Assembly (NCBI GenBank): GCA_029238315.1 | Contig: JAQWGI010000025.1 | Location: forward strand, 1-64,000 | Source of the DNA: Polaribacter sp. | GTDB lineage: Bacteria > Bacteroidota > Bacteroidia > Flavobacteriales > Flavobacteriaceae | Reading direction: 5' to 3' | Length of the DNA stretch: 64,000 nucleotides | Shown: piece after piece, positions 21,482 to 47,765 of the stretch | Layout: the number at the start of each line of letters is the position of its first letter | Numbering within the stretch: the first letter of the stretch is position 1 | Made by a program: the position numbers and the translations under genes | Notes under the pieces: model-generated | The model's input: only the letters and a program-made list of their open reading frames with translations | What the model was told of the DNA's origin: nothing | Databases searched by the model: none

Positions 21482-21874
21482 GGGGACGACTGGTTTTGAC
21501 AGCGAGACGCGTTAAAATGTAAGCATACCGAGGAATGAAGTTACTACTCGTAAAACTTATTTCAACACTTTTAAACGGCGAAGATAACTACGCTTTAGCT
21601 GCATAATCTGAATTACAGTAAGATTGGCCTAGTCCCGCAAGGCGGGAAAGCTTTATGTCCACGAACAGCCTTGGTTTACGGCGTTTCACTTTTGGACATC
21701 GTAAAAGTAAACATAGAAATTTTGGCACTTCGACAAAGTTTTGAAACTAAAGAAGATAAGCTTTTAGTAGATTGTTTTTAATCAGCTATAAGACGAAAAT
21801 TAATTAAAAACTAAGTATGTAGAAAGCCTTTTGGCCGCTTGTTTGGACCCGAGTTCGATTCTCGGCGTCTCCAC
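21482..21874 (+). ncRNA. ssrA: Transfer-messenger RNA (tmRNA)
   Basis: 5' GGGGACGACTGGTTTTGACAGC and 3' GTTCGATTCTCGGCGTCTCCAC tRNA-like ends pair; tag ORF GGC GAA GAT AAC TAC GCT TTA GCT GCA TAA (GEDNYALAA) at 21577-21606. Confidence 0.96.
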
Positions 21875-21880
21875 TTTTAA

Positions 21881-39744: not shown

Positions 39745-40185
39745 ATGAAACCATATTTAGTTTTATTTTTAATGATTTTTTTTATTTCTTGCAGTAACGA
39801 TGAAGATAATTACAGCACAGAAAATGATTTAGAAATTCAAGAATACATTAAAAGGAACAACTTAAACGCCACCAAAACTGCAAGTGGATTATACATTGTG
39901 ATAACTGATCAAGGAAATGGCGCAAAACCAACTTCTAGCTCTTCTGTAACAGTAAATTATAAAGGTTATTTTACTGATGGAAGCCGTTTTGATCAAGGGC
40001 AAAATGTAACATTTAATTTAAATCAAGTGATTACAGGTTGGTCTGAAGGATTAACACATTTTAATGAAGACACTCAAGGTTGGCTCTTGGTCCCGTCTCA
40101 TTTAGGCTACGGAAGCAACGGATCTAATTCAATTCCTGGTGGATCTGTATTAATTTTTAGTATTCATTTATTAAAAATTAATTAA
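39745..40185 (+). CDS. FKBP-type peptidyl-prolyl cis-trans isomerase lipoprotein
   Basis: ORF track gives 39670; MKPYLVLFLMIFFISCS lipoprotein signal at 39745 preferred; 'VTVNYKGYFTDGSRFDQG', 'IPGGSVLIFSIHLLKI'. Confidence 0.88.
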   Translation: MKPYLVLFLMIFFISCSNDEDNYSTENDLEIQEYIKRNNLNATKTASGLYIVITDQGNGAKPTSSSSVTVNYKGYFTDGSRFDQGQNVTFNLNQVITGWSEGLTHFNEDTQGWLLVPSHLGYGSNGSNSIPGGSVLIFSIHLLKIN

Positions 40186-40943
40186 CGAATCGATGTTATA
40201 AAATCACTTATTTTATCAGTACCGTTTATAGCTAATTCCTTAATAAAAGCAGAACCAATAATGGCTCCACCTGCATATTTACAAGCTGTTTTAAATGTTT
40301 TATTATCAGAAATTCCAAATCCAATAATTAAACTACTCTTTAAATTCATTGCTTTGACACGCTCAAAATAAGCAATCTGATTGTTAGAAATATCTCCTTT
40401 TGCCCCAGTAATTGAAGCAGATGCAACAACATAAATAAAAGCATCTGTTAACGCATCAATTTTTCTAATTCTTTCTTCAGATGTATGTGGCGTAATTAAA
40501 AACACATTTGTCAATCCATATTTATTAAATAATTGTTGGTAATGACTTTCATATTCAACCATTGGTAAATCTGGAAAAATAACTGTTTCAATTCCGCAAT
40601 CTACACATGCTTGACAAAATTTATCCTCTCCATACTTTAATAACTGATTCAAATAACCCATTAAAACTAACGGTGTAGAGTTTGTTTCTTTAATTGATTT
40701 TAATTGCTCAAAAACAACATCTAAATTCATACCGTTTTGTAAAGCAACTTGACTACTATCTTGTATTGTTGGTCCATCGGCTAAAGGATCTGAATAAGGC
40801 AAACCAACCTCAATAAAATCTACACTATTATCGCTTAATTTTTCAATAATTTTTGTTGTGTCGTTTAATTTTGGATAACCAGCTGTAAAGAAAATCGACA
40901 ATAAATCTTTCTTTTGTTGAAATATGTTTGTTAATGAATTCAT
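40182..40943 (-). CDS. trpA: Tryptophan synthase alpha chain
   Basis: 'FFTAGYPKLNDTTKIIEKL', 'FIEVGLPYSDPLADGPTIQ'. Confidence 0.96.
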   Translation of the reverse strand: MNSLTNIFQQKKDLLSIFFTAGYPKLNDTTKIIEKLSDNSVDFIEVGLPYSDPLADGPTIQDSSQVALQNGMNLDVVFEQLKSIKETNSTPLVLMGYLNQLLKYGEDKFCQACVDCGIETVIFPDLPMVEYESHYQQLFNKYGLTNVFLITPHTSEERIRKIDALTDAFIYVVASASITGAKGDISNNQIAYFERVKAMNLKSSLIIGFGISDNKTFKTACKYAGGAIIGSAFIKELAINGTDKISDFITSIR

Positions 40944-40966
40944 TGTTTTGTCTTTTTTTTTGTTTT

Positions 40967-41033
40967 GTCATTCCCGAGAAATCGGGAATCTATTTTTATC
41001 GAAGTTTGGATTCCGCATCAAGTGCGAAATGAC
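40967..41033. repeat. Palindromic intergenic repeat (GTCATT...AATGAC) between trpB and trpA
   Basis: ATTCCCGA-gaaa-TCGGGAAT hairpin at 40970-40989 plus GCATCAAGTGC; outer GTCATT/AATGAC ends. Confidence 0.7.
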
Positions 41034-41035
41034 AA

Positions 41036-42220
41036 TTAATCTTCTAAATGATTGATATACGTTTCTAGATCTTTATCGCCTCTTCCAGATAAATTTATAA
41101 CTACCACTTGGTCTTTTTTTAGTTGCATCTTAGGCAATACTGCTAAGGCATGTGCTGTTTCTAAAGCAGGAATAATTCCTTCAATTTTTGTCAACTCATA
41201 AGCTGCAACAAGCGCTTCATTGTCTGTTGCGTTCATAAACTTTGCTCTTTTAGTTTCATATAAAAAAGCGTGTAAAGGTCCAACTCCTGGATAATCTAAT
41301 CCAGCAGAAATTGAATAAGGCTCTACAATTTGTCCGTATGTATCTTGCATTAAAATGGTTTTACTTCCATGAATTACACCCACTTCTCCTAATTGAGAAG
41401 TAGCTGCACTTTCTCCAGAATTAACTCCCAAACCAGCAGCTTCTACAGCAATTAGCTCTACATCTTCATCATCTAAATAATTATAAAAAGCCCCAGCAGC
41501 ATTTGAGCCACCACCAACACATGCAATAATTGTATCTGGGTTTTCTTTACCCGTTTTTTCTTTTAATTGCCATTTCATTTCTTCAGAAATAATTGCTTGT
41601 AAACGTGCAACCATATCTGGATGAGGCGCAGGGCCAACTACAGATCCAATTAAATAAAAAGTTTCTGGATGCTGAATCCAATATCTTATGGCTTCATTTG
41701 TAGCATCTTTTAACGTTTTAGAACCAGAGGTTGCTGCAACAACCTTGGCACCTAACATCTTCATTCTAGCTACATTTGGCGCTTGTCTAACAATGTCTTT
41801 TTCACCCATAAAAACGGTACAATCTAAACCCATCAGAGCACAAACCGTAGCTGTAGCAACACCATGTTGCCCCGCTCCTGTTTCTGCTATAATTTTTGTT
41901 TTACCTAATTTTTGGGCAATCAAAATTTGTCCAATTGTATTATTTACTTTGTGAGCTCCAGTATGATTTAAATCTTCGCGTTTTAAATAAATAGTTGCTC
42001 CATACTTCTCAGACAAACGTTTTGCAAAGTACAAAGGCGTTGGTCTTCCAACATAATCTTTTAACAACGATTTATATTCTGTTTGAAATGCTTCCGACTC
42101 TATAATTTGTATATAGTTATCCGCTAATTCTTGCACGTTTGGATGCAACAATTCAGGAATAAATGCACCTCCAAATTGTCCGTAATATCCGTTTTTATCT
42201 GGTTGAAATTTTGATTTCAT
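41036..42220 (-). CDS. trpB: Tryptophan synthase beta chain
   Basis: '[20 protein letters not shown]', '[10 protein letters not shown]'. Confidence 0.97.
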
Positions 42221-42234
42221 ATGTATAATATTCT

Positions 42235-42294
42235 GTCATTGCGAGGAACGAAGCAATCTTTATCTTGAAATTACTTCACTTTGTTTGTAATGAC
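42235..42294. repeat. Dispersed repeat GTCATTGCGAGGAACGAAGCAATCTT...TTACTTCACTTTGTTTGTAATGAC overlapping trpF 3' end
   Basis: Inverted GTCATT/AATGAC ends; related copy at 47766-47832. Confidence 0.75.
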
Positions 42295-42918
42295 GATTTT
42301 TTTAAATTTATTTATATTTTCTACTGATTTCAAACCAGCCTTTAATTCAAATTTACTGTTAACATCAAGGGCATAAATAGGCAAATTTGTTTTTGCAACT
42401 TGTTTTATTTCTTTTACTTGATCTAGACCAATTCCGCCACTTAAAAAAAAAGGTTTTTCAAAAAGATAATTTTCTAATACTTTCCAATCAAAAGTAATTC
42501 CATTACCTCCTCGTTCTTTACCCTTTGTATCAAATAAAAAATAATCAACAACTTCTATATAAGGTTGTAGCATATTAAAATCGAATTCGTCTTTTATGCT
42601 GAAAACTTTTATAATCTCTATCGAAATGTCATCTCGAGCACAGTCGAGAGATCTTAATTCCTCGATGTATTGCACACTTTCATCTCCATGTAATTGCACC
42701 GCCTTCAAATTGTATTTATTTACTTTTGAGGCAACTTCATCAATAGTTGCATTTACAAAAACACCTGTTTTTTTTATTGATTTTGGAAGCTCCGGAATTA
42801 TTCCATCAAAATTTCTTTTTGATTTATCGTAAAAAATAAACCCTAAATAATCAGGTTGTAAATCAGCTACTTGCTGAATATTTTCTACATATTTCATTCC
42901 ACAAACCTTCAGTTTCAT
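42271..42918 (-). CDS. trpF: Phosphoribosylanthranilate isomerase
   Basis: 'LKVCGMKYVENIQQVADLQPDYLGFIFYDKSKR', 'AVQLHGDE', 'FFLSGGIGLDQV'; contains repeat-encoded insertion. Confidence 0.92.
   Translation of the reverse strand: MKLKVCGMKYVENIQQVADLQPDYLGFIFYDKSKRNFDGIIPELPKSIKKTGVFVNATIDEVASKVNKYNLKAVQLHGDESVQYIEELRSLDCARDDISIEIIKVFSIKDEFDFNMLQPYIEVVDYFLFDTKGKERGGNGITFDWKVLENYLFEKPFFLSGGIGLDQVKEIKQVAKTNLPIYALDVNSKFELKAGLKSVENINKFKKIVITNKVK
42628..42653. repeat. Small palindromic repeat inside trpF coding sequence
   Basis: GTCATCTCGAGCACAGTCGAGAGATCT; palindrome CTCGA-gcacag-TCGAG; translated in frame as RSLDCARDD. Confidence 0.75.
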
Positions 42919-42919
42919 C

Positions 42920-43708
42920 TTATCGTATTTGACTAATAAATTCTTGACAAGCTTCTCCCGGGTTTTCTGTCTTCATAAATGTTTCACCTATTAAAAAACC
43001 TTGAAAACCATATTCTTTTAATCCAGTAATAATTCTCGGATCTGAAATTCCGCTCTCAGAAACCTTTATACAAGAAGCAGGAATTTGATTTGCCAATAAC
43101 ATAGAGTGTTCTAAATCTACTTCAAACGTTTTTAAATTACGGTTATTAATTCCGATAATTTTATTATCTAAATCATTAATTTTATCTAAATCTTCTTGCG
43201 TATGCACTTCATATAAAACCTCTAAACCTAAATCGTTTGCAAGGTTTCCATAGTTTTTTAATTCTATTGATGTTAAACAAGATGCGATTAACAAAATAAC
43301 ATCAGCTCCAATTGCTTTTGCTTCTACAATTTGAAATCCATCAACAACAAAATCTTTTCTTAAAATAGGTTTTTGTTGATTTACAATTCTTGCTTCCATC
43401 AAATCTGCCATCGTTCCACCAAAAAAAGAAGTATCTGTTAAAATAGATTGCGCAGCTACATTAGCGTCTAAATAACCATTAGTTACTTCTTCAATTGTTG
43501 CCTTATCATTAATTATTCCTTTGGATGGAGACTGGCGTTTAAATTCAGCAATAATTCCTGTTGAACCCACTTCTAATAAAGAAGATTTTAATGAAATTCC
43601 TGTTCTTTTAAATTTCGGACTTTCCACTAATTTTTTAACAGGAACTTCTGCTTTTATCTTTGCAATTTCCTTCTTTTTAAATGCGATTATTTTATCTAAA
43701 ATTGTCAT
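42920..43708 (-). CDS. trpC: Indole-3-glycerol-phosphate synthase
   Basis: 'IIAEFKRQSPSKGIIND', 'ILRKDFVVDGFQI', 'IIGINNRNLKTFEVD'. Confidence 0.96.
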   Translation of the reverse strand: MTILDKIIAFKKKEIAKIKAEVPVKKLVESPKFKRTGISLKSSLLEVGSTGIIAEFKRQSPSKGIINDKATIEEVTNGYLDANVAAQSILTDTSFFGGTMADLMEARIVNQQKPILRKDFVVDGFQIVEAKAIGADVILLIASCLTSIELKNYGNLANDLGLEVLYEVHTQEDLDKINDLDNKIIGINNRNLKTFEVDLEHSMLLANQIPASCIKVSESGISDPRIITGLKEYGFQGFLIGETFMKTENPGEACQEFISQIR

Positions 43709-43737
43709 ATAAATAATTACTAATTTTTAATTATGAA

Positions 43738-44097
43738 TTACGAGTTTGAATTTCTAATTGTCTTTTGAATACTTCCGATAATCTTTAATATTTCTTCAAT
43801 ATCTTTTAATAAGGATTCTGATTCTTTTTCCGACAAATAATCAGTGTCTTTTAAAAGTCGAATCCAATAATGAGATTCTCTAGCTTCTTTATAAGCAATT
43901 GTTAACTTTGCGAAGAAATCTTTTCTGCTTTGATTTCCAATTGCTTCTTCTACATTTGCTCCAATAGATGTTCCTGATCGTAATAACTGTTTACTTAAAA
44001 CAAATTCTTTTTTTTCTTGAGATAAATGCTTGTATAATTTCACAACTCTAACAGCAAAATCATAACTTTTTATCTGAATTATATTATCTTTTTTCAT
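43738..44097 (-). CDS. Four helix bundle protein (S23/TIGR02436 family)
   Basis: 'SYDFAVRVVKLYKHLSQEKKEFVLSKQLLRSGTSIGANVEEAIGNQSRKDFFAKLTIAYKEARESHYWIRLL' signature. Confidence 0.92.
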   Translation of the reverse strand: MKKDNIIQIKSYDFAVRVVKLYKHLSQEKKEFVLSKQLLRSGTSIGANVEEAIGNQSRKDFFAKLTIAYKEARESHYWIRLLKDTDYLSEKESESLLKDIEEILKIIGSIQKTIRNSNS

Positions 44098-44120
44098 AAC
44101 TAAAAATTTATAATTCGTAA

Positions 44121-45113
44121 TTACGAACTCGCAATTAACTTTTCTAAACTTTGTTTTGCTTTTCCTGAAAACAATGATTCTTTAGCTTCTGCAAAAGTAT
44201 CATGAAAAGATTTCTTTTCATCAACAATTTTCAAAGCAAATGCGGCATTAGTTAACACTACATTATTTTGTGCTTCGCTTCCATTTCCTTCTAAAATATT
44301 TTTGAAAATTTTTGCTGCATCAGCAACAAAATTGCCTCCAAAAATTTCTGATTGTTGAATTCTTTTTTGACCTAAATCTTCTGGATTTATGAATTGCTCT
44401 CCATTTTTTGTAAATAATTTAAATCCGCTTGTTAAAGAGATTTCATCATAACCATCTAATGCGTGTACAATACCGTAATTGGTCTTTTCCTCTTGTAAAA
44501 TATAATTATACAAACGTGCAACCTCAACATTAAAAGTTCCTAATAATTGATTTTGCGGCGAACTCGGATTGACCAAAGGACCTAACATATTAAAGAACGT
44601 TTTTAACTTTAACGCTTTTCTGGTTGGTCCAACTGCTTTCATTGCAGGATGAAATTTTGGCGCATGTAAAAAACAAATATTCGCTTTTTCTAAATGTTCT
44701 TTTAAAATATTTTCGTCATTTGTGAATTCGTAACCAAAACTGGCTAACATATCTGAAGAACCAGATTGTGAAGACACAGAATAATTTCCGTGTTTTGCAA
44801 CTTTCTGACCAGTTCCTGCAACAATAAATGATGTTAATGTAGAAATGTTAAACGTATCTTTTCCGTCACCGCCAGTTCCAACAATATCAATGGTATTATA
44901 ATCTGAAAAATCTACTTTAATTGCCAATTCTTTTAATGCATTTCTAAAACCAGAAAGCTCATCTACCGTAATTGGACGCATCATAAAAACCGTCATAAAC
45001 GAAGCTAAATGTGCATCGTTATATTTCTCTGCCGCAATGTTAATCAAAACCTCTTTTGCTTGAGATTGTGTTAATCTTTTATGCTGATATAAATCGTTTA
45101 AAATATCTTTCAT
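44121..45113 (-). CDS. trpD: Anthranilate phosphoribosyltransferase
   Basis: 'DIVGTGGDGKDTFNISTLTSFIVAGTGQKVAKHGN', 'GPTRKALKLKTFFNMLGPLVNP'. Confidence 0.96.
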   Translation of the reverse strand: MKDILNDLYQHKRLTQSQAKEVLINIAAEKYNDAHLASFMTVFMMRPITVDELSGFRNALKELAIKVDFSDYNTIDIVGTGGDGKDTFNISTLTSFIVAGTGQKVAKHGNYSVSSQSGSSDMLASFGYEFTNDENILKEHLEKANICFLHAPKFHPAMKAVGPTRKALKLKTFFNMLGPLVNPSSPQNQLLGTFNVEVARLYNYILQEEKTNYGIVHALDGYDEISLTSGFKLFTKNGEQFINPEDLGQKRIQQSEIFGGNFVADAAKIFKNILEGNGSEAQNNVVLTNAAFALKIVDEKKSFHDTFAEAKESLFSGKAKQSLEKLIASS

Positions 45114-45116
45114 TTT

Positions 45117-45197
45117 ATGCTGAATTTACTTGTACTGAACTTGGTTCAGTATTTCAGTATCTTTTCTATTATTTAGATGCTGAATCAAGTTCAGCAT
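45117..45197. repeat. Cluster of ATGCTGAA...TTCAGCAT-type palindromes between trpG and trpD
   Basis: TACTGAACTTGGTTCAGTA (45133-45151) and ATGCTGAATCAAGTTCAGCAT (45177-45197). Confidence 0.75.
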
Positions 45198-45774
45198 TCA
45201 ACTCTACCGAGTTGATAAAATTTCTTACAATTTGCTCTCCAACTTCTGTTAAAATACTTTCTGGATGAAATTGTACAGCAGAAATTGGAAATGCTTTATG
45301 TTCTATGGCTTGAATTCCGCCTTTTTCATCTCTTGCAGTAACAATTAATTCTGAAGGAAAACCTTCATCGGAAGCCAACCAAGAATGATAACGTGCTGCT
45401 AGAAATGTTTTAGGAATATCTTTAAAGATAACGCAGTCGTCATTTATTACCTTCATTTCTGTTGCAACTCCGTGAAAAACTTCTTCTAAGTTGATAATTG
45501 TTCCACCAAAAACCTCTGTAATTGCTTGTAGCCCCAAACAAACACCAAATATGGGTTTTTTATCTGAATACGTTTTAATAACGTCTTTTAAAATGCCCGC
45601 TTCATCAGGAATTCCAGGGCCTGGAGAAAGCATAATTAAATCGAACTTCCCTACTTCTTCGAGGCTAATTTCATCGTTTCTAAAAACTGCAGGAGATACT
45701 CCTGTTATTTTTTCAACCATGTGAACCAAATTATAAGTAAACGAGTCGTAATTATCTAATATTAATATGTTCAT
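45169..45774 (-). CDS. trpG: Anthranilate synthase component II (glutamine amidotransferase)
   Basis: 'LILDNYDSFTYNLVHMVE', 'PIFGVCLGLQAI', 'AVQFHPESILTEVG'. Confidence 0.95.
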   Translation of the reverse strand: MNILILDNYDSFTYNLVHMVEKITGVSPAVFRNDEISLEEVGKFDLIMLSPGPGIPDEAGILKDVIKTYSDKKPIFGVCLGLQAITEVFGGTIINLEEVFHGVATEMKVINDDCVIFKDIPKTFLAARYHSWLASDEGFPSELIVTARDEKGGIQAIEHKAFPISAVQFHPESILTEVGEQIVRNFINSVELNAELDSASK

Positions 45775-45851
45775 TTTTTATTTATTCAAAAATTGAATGA
45801 TTAAATAATTTAAAAATCCTTGAATCTTTAAATTTTCAATCTTTTAATAAC

Positions 45852-47243
45852 TTATATCTTTTCTGCTAAAAGCAACGCTTTCTTTAACGCTGCTAATTTA
45901 TTATTTACTTCTTGCAATTCCTTTTCTTCATCAGAATGAATTACAATCCCTGCTCCTGCTTGAGAATACAATACATTATTTTTACTCACAAAAGAACGAA
46001 TTGCAATCGCCAAATTTACTGAGCCATTTAGTCCGATAATCCCGACTGCACCACCATAAAATCCGCGAGTTTGATTTTCATATTTATTAATCAATTCCAT
46101 TGCTTTGTATTTGGGTGCGCCACTTAAGGTTCCTGCTGGAAAAGTATCTCCAACAATTTCAATCGGATTTCCTTTTATTTTTCCACGAACTGTAGAAACT
46201 AAATGAATTACATGGCTAAAATACTGCACTTCTTTAAACACCTCAACAGTTACATTATCTGCATGTTTACTCAGATCATTTCTAGCTAAATCTACCAACA
46301 TTACATGTTCTGCAGTTTCTTTTTTATCTTCAGAAAGTTTCTTACCTAACTGAATATCTTTGGTCATATCTCCTGTTCTTCTAAAAGTTCCGGCAATAGG
46401 ATTTATAGTTGCTTTTCCTTCAGAAATTTTAATTTGCGCCTCTGGGGAAGAGCCCATTAACTTAAAACTTCCGTAGTCAAAATAAAATAAATATGGTGAC
46501 GGATTTATAGAACGCAAAGCTCTGTATACATTAAATTCGTCTCCTTTAAACTTTTGTTGAAATTGGCGCGATAACACTAACTGAAACACATCTCCTCTTT
46601 TACAATGCTCTTTTGCTTTTACTACATACTCTTTAAAATCTTCATCCGAGCAATTTGACGTTTCACTACCAACAATATCAAATTTTTGCGTATTAAAAGT
46701 TTGTGCTTCAATAATGGTTTCAATTTCTGAAATTCTTGATTCGGTTCCTTCTTCTATATTTTCAATTAAGGTCATTTCATCATTAAAATGATTGATGGCA
46801 ATAATAAATCGATAAAAACTATACTGCATTTCTGGAATTGCAGAAGGCGCATCTTGATTGTCAAATTTGATGGTTTCAAAATACTGAACAGCATCAAAAG
46901 TTGTGTACCCATACAAGCCATTAAACGATTTAATTTCTTCATCACACTCTAAAGCTACCTTGTTAGAAAAGTGATCAAATAACTGATAGAAATTACCATC
47001 AATTTTCTGGCTATCAATATCTTTTCCTTTATAGTTTGTAGCAAAATTATTTTTATTCACTTTCATAGAAAACACAGGTTCTATCGCAATAAAAGAAAAA
47101 CTTTCTTCTTTACTGTGATAGTCTGAACTTTCTAACAATAATGTATTAGAGAATTGATCTCTAAAACGCAAATACAAACCAACGGGCGTAATGGTGTCTG
47201 AAATTCGTTTTTTAGTTATTGTATTAAATTTAATTTTCTTCAT
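45852..47243 (-). CDS. trpE: Anthranilate synthase component I
   Basis: 'GDVFQLVLSRQFQQKF', 'NPSPYLFYFDYG', 'ARNDLSKHADNVTV', 'YSQAGAGIV'. Confidence 0.95.
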   Translation of the reverse strand: MKKIKFNTITKKRISDTITPVGLYLRFRDQFSNTLLLESSDYHSKEESFSFIAIEPVFSMKVNKNNFATNYKGKDIDSQKIDGNFYQLFDHFSNKVALECDEEIKSFNGLYGYTTFDAVQYFETIKFDNQDAPSAIPEMQYSFYRFIIAINHFNDEMTLIENIEEGTESRISEIETIIEAQTFNTQKFDIVGSETSNCSDEDFKEYVVKAKEHCKRGDVFQLVLSRQFQQKFKGDEFNVYRALRSINPSPYLFYFDYGSFKLMGSSPEAQIKISEGKATINPIAGTFRRTGDMTKDIQLGKKLSEDKKETAEHVMLVDLARNDLSKHADNVTVEVFKEVQYFSHVIHLVSTVRGKIKGNPIEIVGDTFPAGTLSGAPKYKAMELINKYENQTRGFYGGAVGIIGLNGSVNLAIAIRSFVSKNNVLYSQAGAGIVIHSDEEKELQEVNNKLAALKKALLLAEKI

Positions 47244-47246
47244 GTA

Positions 47247-47316
47247 TGCTGAACTTATTTCAGTATCCTAATATCTTATTATTTAATTCTAAATGATGCT
47301 GAAATAAATTCAGCAT
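47247..47316. repeat. Two CTGAA/TTCAG palindromic repeats between the trp attenuator terminator and trpE
   Basis: TGCTGAACTTATTTCAGTA (about 47247-47265) and ATGCTGAAATAAATTCAGCAT (47296-47316). Confidence 0.7.
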
Positions 47317-47351
47317 AAAAAAAGGCTTATCGTGAGATAAGCCTTTTTTTT
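47317..47351 (-). terminator. trp attenuator terminator
   Basis: Minus-strand GGCTTATC-TCAC-GATAAGCC followed by T-run, 74 nt upstream of trpE start. Confidence 0.85.
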
Positions 47352-47379
47352 ATATTTTACATATAGGTTTTCTTCTCAC

Positions 47380-47427
47380 TTATTGATTAAGAGAGTTCCA
47401 CCACCATATATTTTGTTGTTTCATCAT
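47380..47427 (-). CDS. trpL: Putative trp operon leader peptide MMKQQNIWWWNSLNQ
   Basis: Three consecutive TGG codons in a 15-codon ORF between a TTG/TACATTTG promoter and an intrinsic terminator upstream of trpE. Confidence 0.85.
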   Translation of the reverse strand: MMKQQNIWWWNSLNQ

Positions 47428-47434
47428 TGAATTA

Positions 47435-47464
47435 CAAATGTATGATAGATTTTTATTCTGACAA
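47435..47464 (-). promoter_or_regulatory. trp operon promoter
   Basis: Minus strand TTG-N19-TACATTTG (TTG = complement of 47462-47464; TACATTTG = complement of 47435-47442), fitting flavobacterial consensus. Confidence 0.7.
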
Positions 47465-47765
47465 ATATTATTTCGTTTTTTTCTAAAAAAGCAGAAATCT
47501 CTTTTTAATTTAAAAAACAACATGGATAAAACATCGCTTTTGAGAGGTTTTTTTGATTTATTAAAAAACAACACAAAATCAAAACCTGTAAATTAAAAAA
47601 TAACGTAGTTTTTAAGCGATTTAAGAGACTTTTGCGCAATTAACAAATGTTGATAAATACAACAAAAATCAATCGTTTCTCTTTTAAAAAAAGCCATAAT
47701 TGATTAAATTTGTTTTATTAAATTTCGTTTTTTGATAAGCGATTTTTATAGACAAAAAATCAATC

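Follow-up and report, generated by a model that had tools for sequence, protein, structure and literature searches.

A probable ribosome-mediated tryptophan attenuator of the Bacteroid-trp family in Polaribacter, with a predicted near-leaderless start

Introduction

In the trpL leader of Escherichia coli, tandem Trp codons, the alternative pairings 1:2, 2:3 and 3:4, and a terminator placed before trpE together make up the textbook case of ribosome-mediated attenuation. A counterpart in Bacteroidota has been catalogued as the Bacteroid-trp RNA, published by Weinberg et al. in 2010 (PMC2864571) and held in Rfam as RF01692. The family model describes one structure, the pairing of regions 1 and 2, and ends within the 5' arm of the terminator. 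A 2019 study discusses Bacteroid-trp for the trp operon of Flavobacterium psychrophilum (PMC6414381), and a 2021 transcriptome study of the same species describes strong clues that amino-acid operons are preceded by leader-peptide attenuators (PMC9723704). Also on record are attenuator peptides with the AUG at the 5' end of the transcript or beside it. The trpL of Sinorhizobium meliloti is leaderless (PMC7298713), and leaderless poly-Cys attenuators of mycobacteria are cited in PMC9031893.

Flavobacterial promoters follow the consensus TTTG/TANNTTTG, and transcription in F. johnsoniae starts 4–5 nt past the TAnnTTTG box (PMC6847099), in keeping with the span of -12 to -5 given for this box in F. 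psychrophilum (PMC9723704). Here, we analyze the region upstream of trpE in a window of 64,000 nt from Polaribacter sp. (contig JAQWGI010000025.1, positions 1 to 64,000).

Locus anatomy and family membership

The leader lies on the minus strand of the window, immediately upstream of a trp operon (Table 1). A preliminary description, made from the letters alone, had read in this interval a promoter, a Trp-rich mini-ORF, a protector hairpin, a GTGAGA element able to pair with TCTCAC, a terminator, and then trpE; every one of these elements was found at its place. In the protector, CTCTCTTA (47395–47388) stands opposite TAAGTGAG (47382–47375) with one T:T mismatch, while GTGAGA (47379–47374) is complementary to TCTCAC (47337–47332). 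Region 2 extends beyond GTGAGA, as its CCT at 47367–47365 has a further partner in the AGG of the terminator arm. The same description had noted that the leader is hidden in a false 64-aa ORF, which proved to be a GTG-initiated frame at 47380–47574 that engulfs it, and its count of 7 nt from TACATTTG to the first ATG is borne out by the sequence. An ATG-initiated frame containing WWW and a stop codon arose in none of 4000 dinucleotide shuffles of 47244–47464, and one containing WW in eight.

Table 1. Features of the trp leader and its surroundings, in window coordinates
Feature	Position	Strand	Basis or detail
-33 TTG element, Bacteroidota sigma-A-type promoter	47462..47464	-	19 nt (N19) 5' of the -7 box
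-7 box TACATTTG (TAnnTTTG consensus)	47435..47442	-	sequence and published promoter spacing
Rfam RF01692 Bacteroid-trp match, full length	47336..47447	-	49.7 bits
Leader peptide ORF MMKQQNIWWWNSLNQ, then stop	47380..47427	-	15 codons and TAA; WWW or GWW/SWW conserved
Sensor, three tandem Trp codons TGGTGGTGG	47398..47406	-	sequence, relatives, shuffles
Region 1, ATATGGTGGTGG...CTCTCTTA	47388..47411	-	pairs with region 2 (protector); no-ribosome fold and Rfam alignment
Region 2, TAAGTGAGAAGAAAACCTATAT	47361..47382	-	partner is either region 1 or region 3; folds
Region 3, AAGGCTTATCTCAC	47332..47345	-	terminator 5' arm and loop; forms the antiterminator with region 2
Intrinsic terminator hairpin AAGGCTTATC-TCAC-GATAAGCCTT (core GGCTTATC-TCAC-GATAAGCC, 47343-47324)	47322..47345	-	-12.8 kcal/mol; conserved
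Terminator T-run	47317..47323	-	sequence
Operon trpE-trpG-trpD-[23S_rRNA_IVP gene]-trpC-trpF-trpB-trpA	40182..47243	-	gene order and Pfam
tmRNA gene	21482..21876	+	Rfam RF00023, 148 bits

The locus is a real, already catalogued and ordinary member of the published family. First, searching the window for Rfam families returned Bacteroid-trp over model positions 1–131 with a score that passes the gathering cut-off of 49, though only just. Second, the element stands directly upstream of tryptophan biosynthesis genes, with trpE starting at 47243 and the operon identified by Pfam. Third, the short tandem-Trp ORF is conserved in relatives. The element thus shares with RF01692 the covariance-model match, the position 5' of trpE, the Trp-codon leader and the terminator arm, and differs in being slightly shorter than the consensus and weakly scoring. 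The F. psychrophilum trp leader (PMC6414381, PMC9723704) belongs to a different genus.

Several further features were observed in and around the operon. Between trpD and trpC lies a gene for a 119-aa protein of the 23S rRNA-intervening-sequence family (43738–44097, minus strand; PF05635, four-helix bundle). The inverted repeat TGCTGAA-N5-TTCAGCA occurs in the gap between terminator and trpE (47297–47315) and again at the end of trpG (45178–45196); with spacers of N2..8, only three sites match genome-wide, and the two given here both fall within the trp operon. An imperfect inverted repeat, ACTGAAATAAGTTCAGCAT, occupies 47244–47262 directly before the trpE ATG. The trpF gene (42271–42918, minus strand) contains the stretch RSLDCARDD, which presumably resembles a translated dispersed repeat.

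Distribution and conservation

At E up to 0.1, RF01692 matches were present in 58 of the 60 genomes of the genus (28 over the cut-off); matches were also present in 210 of 301 family genomes and in a few genomes outside the family. The closest named relatives by protein similarity are Tenacibaculum and Polaribacter. The Rfam-found sample comprised 160 loci, two of which (L086 and L089) are weak matches without tandem Trp codons; among the other 158, the leader reads WWW in 154 (L062 included) and GWW in four (L039, L041, L049, L050). A second sample of 80 trpE loci was drawn by protein similarity alone, independent of Rfam but sharing organisms with the first, and a tandem-Trp leader and a terminator precede trpE in all 80 (79 by script, L291 by eye). 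The comparison of trpE upstream regions that had been proposed as a check on the attenuator reading therefore came out in its favor. In four leaders (L124, L134, L144, L159), no in-frame ATG stands where the start is expected; TTG apparently serves in three, which belong to the leadered class, and GTG, 5 nt past the promoter box, in one. When His-type leaders of the same architecture were sought in the 60 genus genomes, many matches were returned, and those listed look like chance.

This pattern bears on how the terminator is run. T-box and TRAP-type systems control trp genes in Firmicutes, and a reading in which uncharged tRNA or a Trp-binding protein operates the terminator, with the peptide incidental, could draw on that precedent and on the conserved terminator that every such scheme has in common. 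We give it almost no credence: the Rfam scan of the window placed no T-box family at gathering score, the family that was matched is a peptide-leader family, and the sole strongly conserved coding feature is the run of tandem Trp codons in frame with the ATG. Sensing by a ribosome translating the leader is the reading that we pursue below.

Alternative pairing

Folded with no ribosome, the leader adopts as its best structure the region 1:2 pairing, which includes the Trp codons, plus the terminator. The 1:2 pairs are ATATGGTGG with ACCTATAT and CTCTCTTA with TAAGTGAG, and this fold corresponds broadly to the consensus structure of RF01692. A stalled ribosome was represented by a mask on the RNA that ran 13 nt beyond the start of each Trp codon, with the 3' arm of the terminator not yet made. 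Masking at any of the three codons gave the region 2:3 structure (-8.1 kcal/mol), in which GTGAGA pairs with TCTCAC, AG with CT, and CCT with AGG, capped by an AU hairpin. A ribosome placed at the stop codon hides region 2, and the fold retains only the terminator. By this masked-segment folding here, and across the 158 loci examined, the protector, antiterminator and terminator helices are mutually exclusive. Since the completed terminator is far more stable than region 2:3, we infer from the folds that the switch has to be kinetic, and the decision would then fall while RNA polymerase passes the terminator loop.

The energy of the duplex between region 2 and the terminator was reached by six of 300 dinucleotide-shuffled upstream segments. 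Pairing of regions 2 and 3 is predicted in 56 of the 57 genus (clade) loci and in all 101 loci from the rest of the family; against dinucleotide shuffles, the mean z is -2.5 and -3.3, respectively. In the clade, GTGAGA of region 2 faces TCTCAC; in the rest of the family, (G/T)TCGTGA(A/G) faces TCACGA. When regions 2 and 3 were re-paired across species of the family, no sign of covariation emerged (6.99 observed, 7.00 after re-pairing), a test that is uninformative within the family because the cores of both regions are nearly invariant. An apparent association of A with T and of G with A at the flanking positions is no base pairing in the second class and was dropped as evidence.

In distant members of the class, outside the family, the pairing is kept by different sequences: GTCGTAAGG with CTTTACGGC in L228, GTCGTGAG with CTTACGAC in L225, and GTGAACAGC with GCTGTTCTC (core GUGAACAGC with GCUGUUCUC) in L229. 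No more than 26 of 300 shuffles equalled or bettered any of these duplexes; taken singly the cases are thus modest, and it is the set that carries the support. Such changes are of the compensatory kind that the preliminary description had put forward as a further check. In one species (locus L076 of genome G303), the terminator keeps its arms but has an inverted loop that reads GTGA for TCAC; the core region 2:3 pairing is thereby broken, which counts against the attenuator reading and makes the locus a natural experiment.

The pairing also weighs on a second reading, in which the hairpin would constitutively end a small transcript, either peptide-coding or an sRNA, and trpE would have a promoter of its own downstream. 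In its favor, nearly 80 nt separate the terminator stem-loop from the trpE ATG here, and the attenuated leader rnTrpL of Sinorhizobium also acts as an sRNA (PMC7298713). In some relatives (e.g., L291), however, trpE follows close behind the terminator, and the strict linkage to trpE and the alternative pairing favor attenuation, making a constitutive terminator very unlikely.

Proposed mechanism

Taken together, the element is very probably a ribosome-mediated tryptophan attenuator of the Bacteroid-trp family. The conserved Trp codons, the terminator and the alternative pairing make classic trp attenuation, as initially proposed, the best reading of the locus, with the order of events and the response to tryptophan modelled on E. 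coli trpL. Transcription would start about 2–3 nt before the leader AUG, and a ribosome following RNA polymerase would translate MMKQQNIWWWNSLNQ. Under a shortage of charged tRNA-Trp, the ribosome would stall on the UGG triplet and cover region 1, allowing regions 2 and 3 to form the antiterminator with its AU hairpin cap, and trpEGD-CFBA would be transcribed. When tryptophan is plentiful, the ribosome would reach the UAA beside region 2 and mask it, and the terminator would form. Without translation, region 1 would take up region 2, again leaving the terminator to form. In either case, transcription would end near 47320.

The locus resembles E. coli trpL in its tandem Trp codons, alternative pairing and terminator preceding trpE. 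It differs in having three Trp codons, in the absence of a Shine-Dalgarno sequence (which the phylum lacks), in a predicted 5' UTR of 2–3 nt, and in a short 2:3 helix in which region 2 engages chiefly the terminator loop and some of the 5' arm.

The predicted near-leaderless 5' end

By analogy with mapped flavobacterial promoters, the transcription start is expected about 5 nt 3' of the G of the -7 box, at about 47429–47430. A box-to-ATG distance of 7 nt and a start 4–5 nt past the box predict the leader 5' UTR of 2–3 nt. This spacing is of the leaderless type, with the start codon a few nucleotides from the expected start site, and the arrangement TAnnTTTG-N7-ATG is conserved in the clade. 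Among Rfam-found clade loci with a box, the spacing is always 6–9 nt and exactly 7 in 46 of 57; in the trpE-similarity sample it is 6–10 nt in 72 of 80 loci and exactly 7 in 48 (L291 counted). The sequence of the linker from box to ATG varies despite its constant length. Other family members show a bimodal distribution, with 4–8 nt in 29 of 97 and 14–22 nt in 56, and the latter class also has a clear box.

A promoter further upstream would give the leader a normal 5' UTR and leave TACATTTG without a role as start signal, the Trp codons and terminator being real all the same. It would agree with general leader lengths, taken here from the published figures for two Flavobacterium species: in F. 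psychrophilum, just 5.5% of the mRNAs mapped are leaderless (PMC9723704), and leaders exceed 10 nt in 87% of cases in F. johnsoniae (PMC6847099). Such a promoter is nevertheless unlikely, given that the distance from TAnnTTTG to ATG holds at 6–10 nt in nearly all clade members over a variable linker and that the second spacing class likewise carries a clear box. We therefore favor a start directed by the -7 box. In the Polaribacter/Tenacibaculum clade and scattered other Flavobacteriaceae, the attenuator peptide probably begins 0–3 nt from the 5' end, judging by promoter spacing, and the family would alternate between this mode and one with a UTR of 10–17 nt, with few intermediates.

Across the whole genome, TAHHTTTG-N7-ATG has 38 matches, a mild excess over the 27 in a reversed control. 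Among 30 loci taken from these matches, no other amino-acid leader peptide with this start was recognisable; L189 and L180 were considered as further leader peptides and rejected, being located in or against unrelated genes.

The preliminary description had regarded the almost absent 5' UTR as an unusual mode of initiation for an attenuator. The near-invariant spacing in the clade supports the short UTR, but its novelty is tempered by leaderless attenuator peptides outside Bacteroidota. Those of S. meliloti (trpL; PMC7298713) and of mycobacteria (poly-Cys; cited in PMC9031893) belong to unrelated phyla with other promoters and have 0 nt before the AUG, against the 2–3 nt predicted here. Given these precedents, the near-leaderless start is a lineage-level detail and not a new kind of attenuator. 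In the searchable literature, we found no report of a near-leaderless start for a trp attenuator in Bacteroidota, and the conserved spacing from -7 box to leader ATG in the clade appears to be unreported there.

Implications

This analysis supplies region 2 and the antiterminator, both absent from the Rfam model of RF01692, and adds many genomes in support of the working of an RNA family that is catalogued but little studied. Should the near-leaderless start hold, the sensing ribosome would have to load where next to no mRNA lies upstream, in a setting in which its timing against RNA polymerase is critical. These leaders would then offer a test in nature of how ribosomes of Bacteroidota, whose mRNAs lack Shine-Dalgarno sequences, load on such a message.
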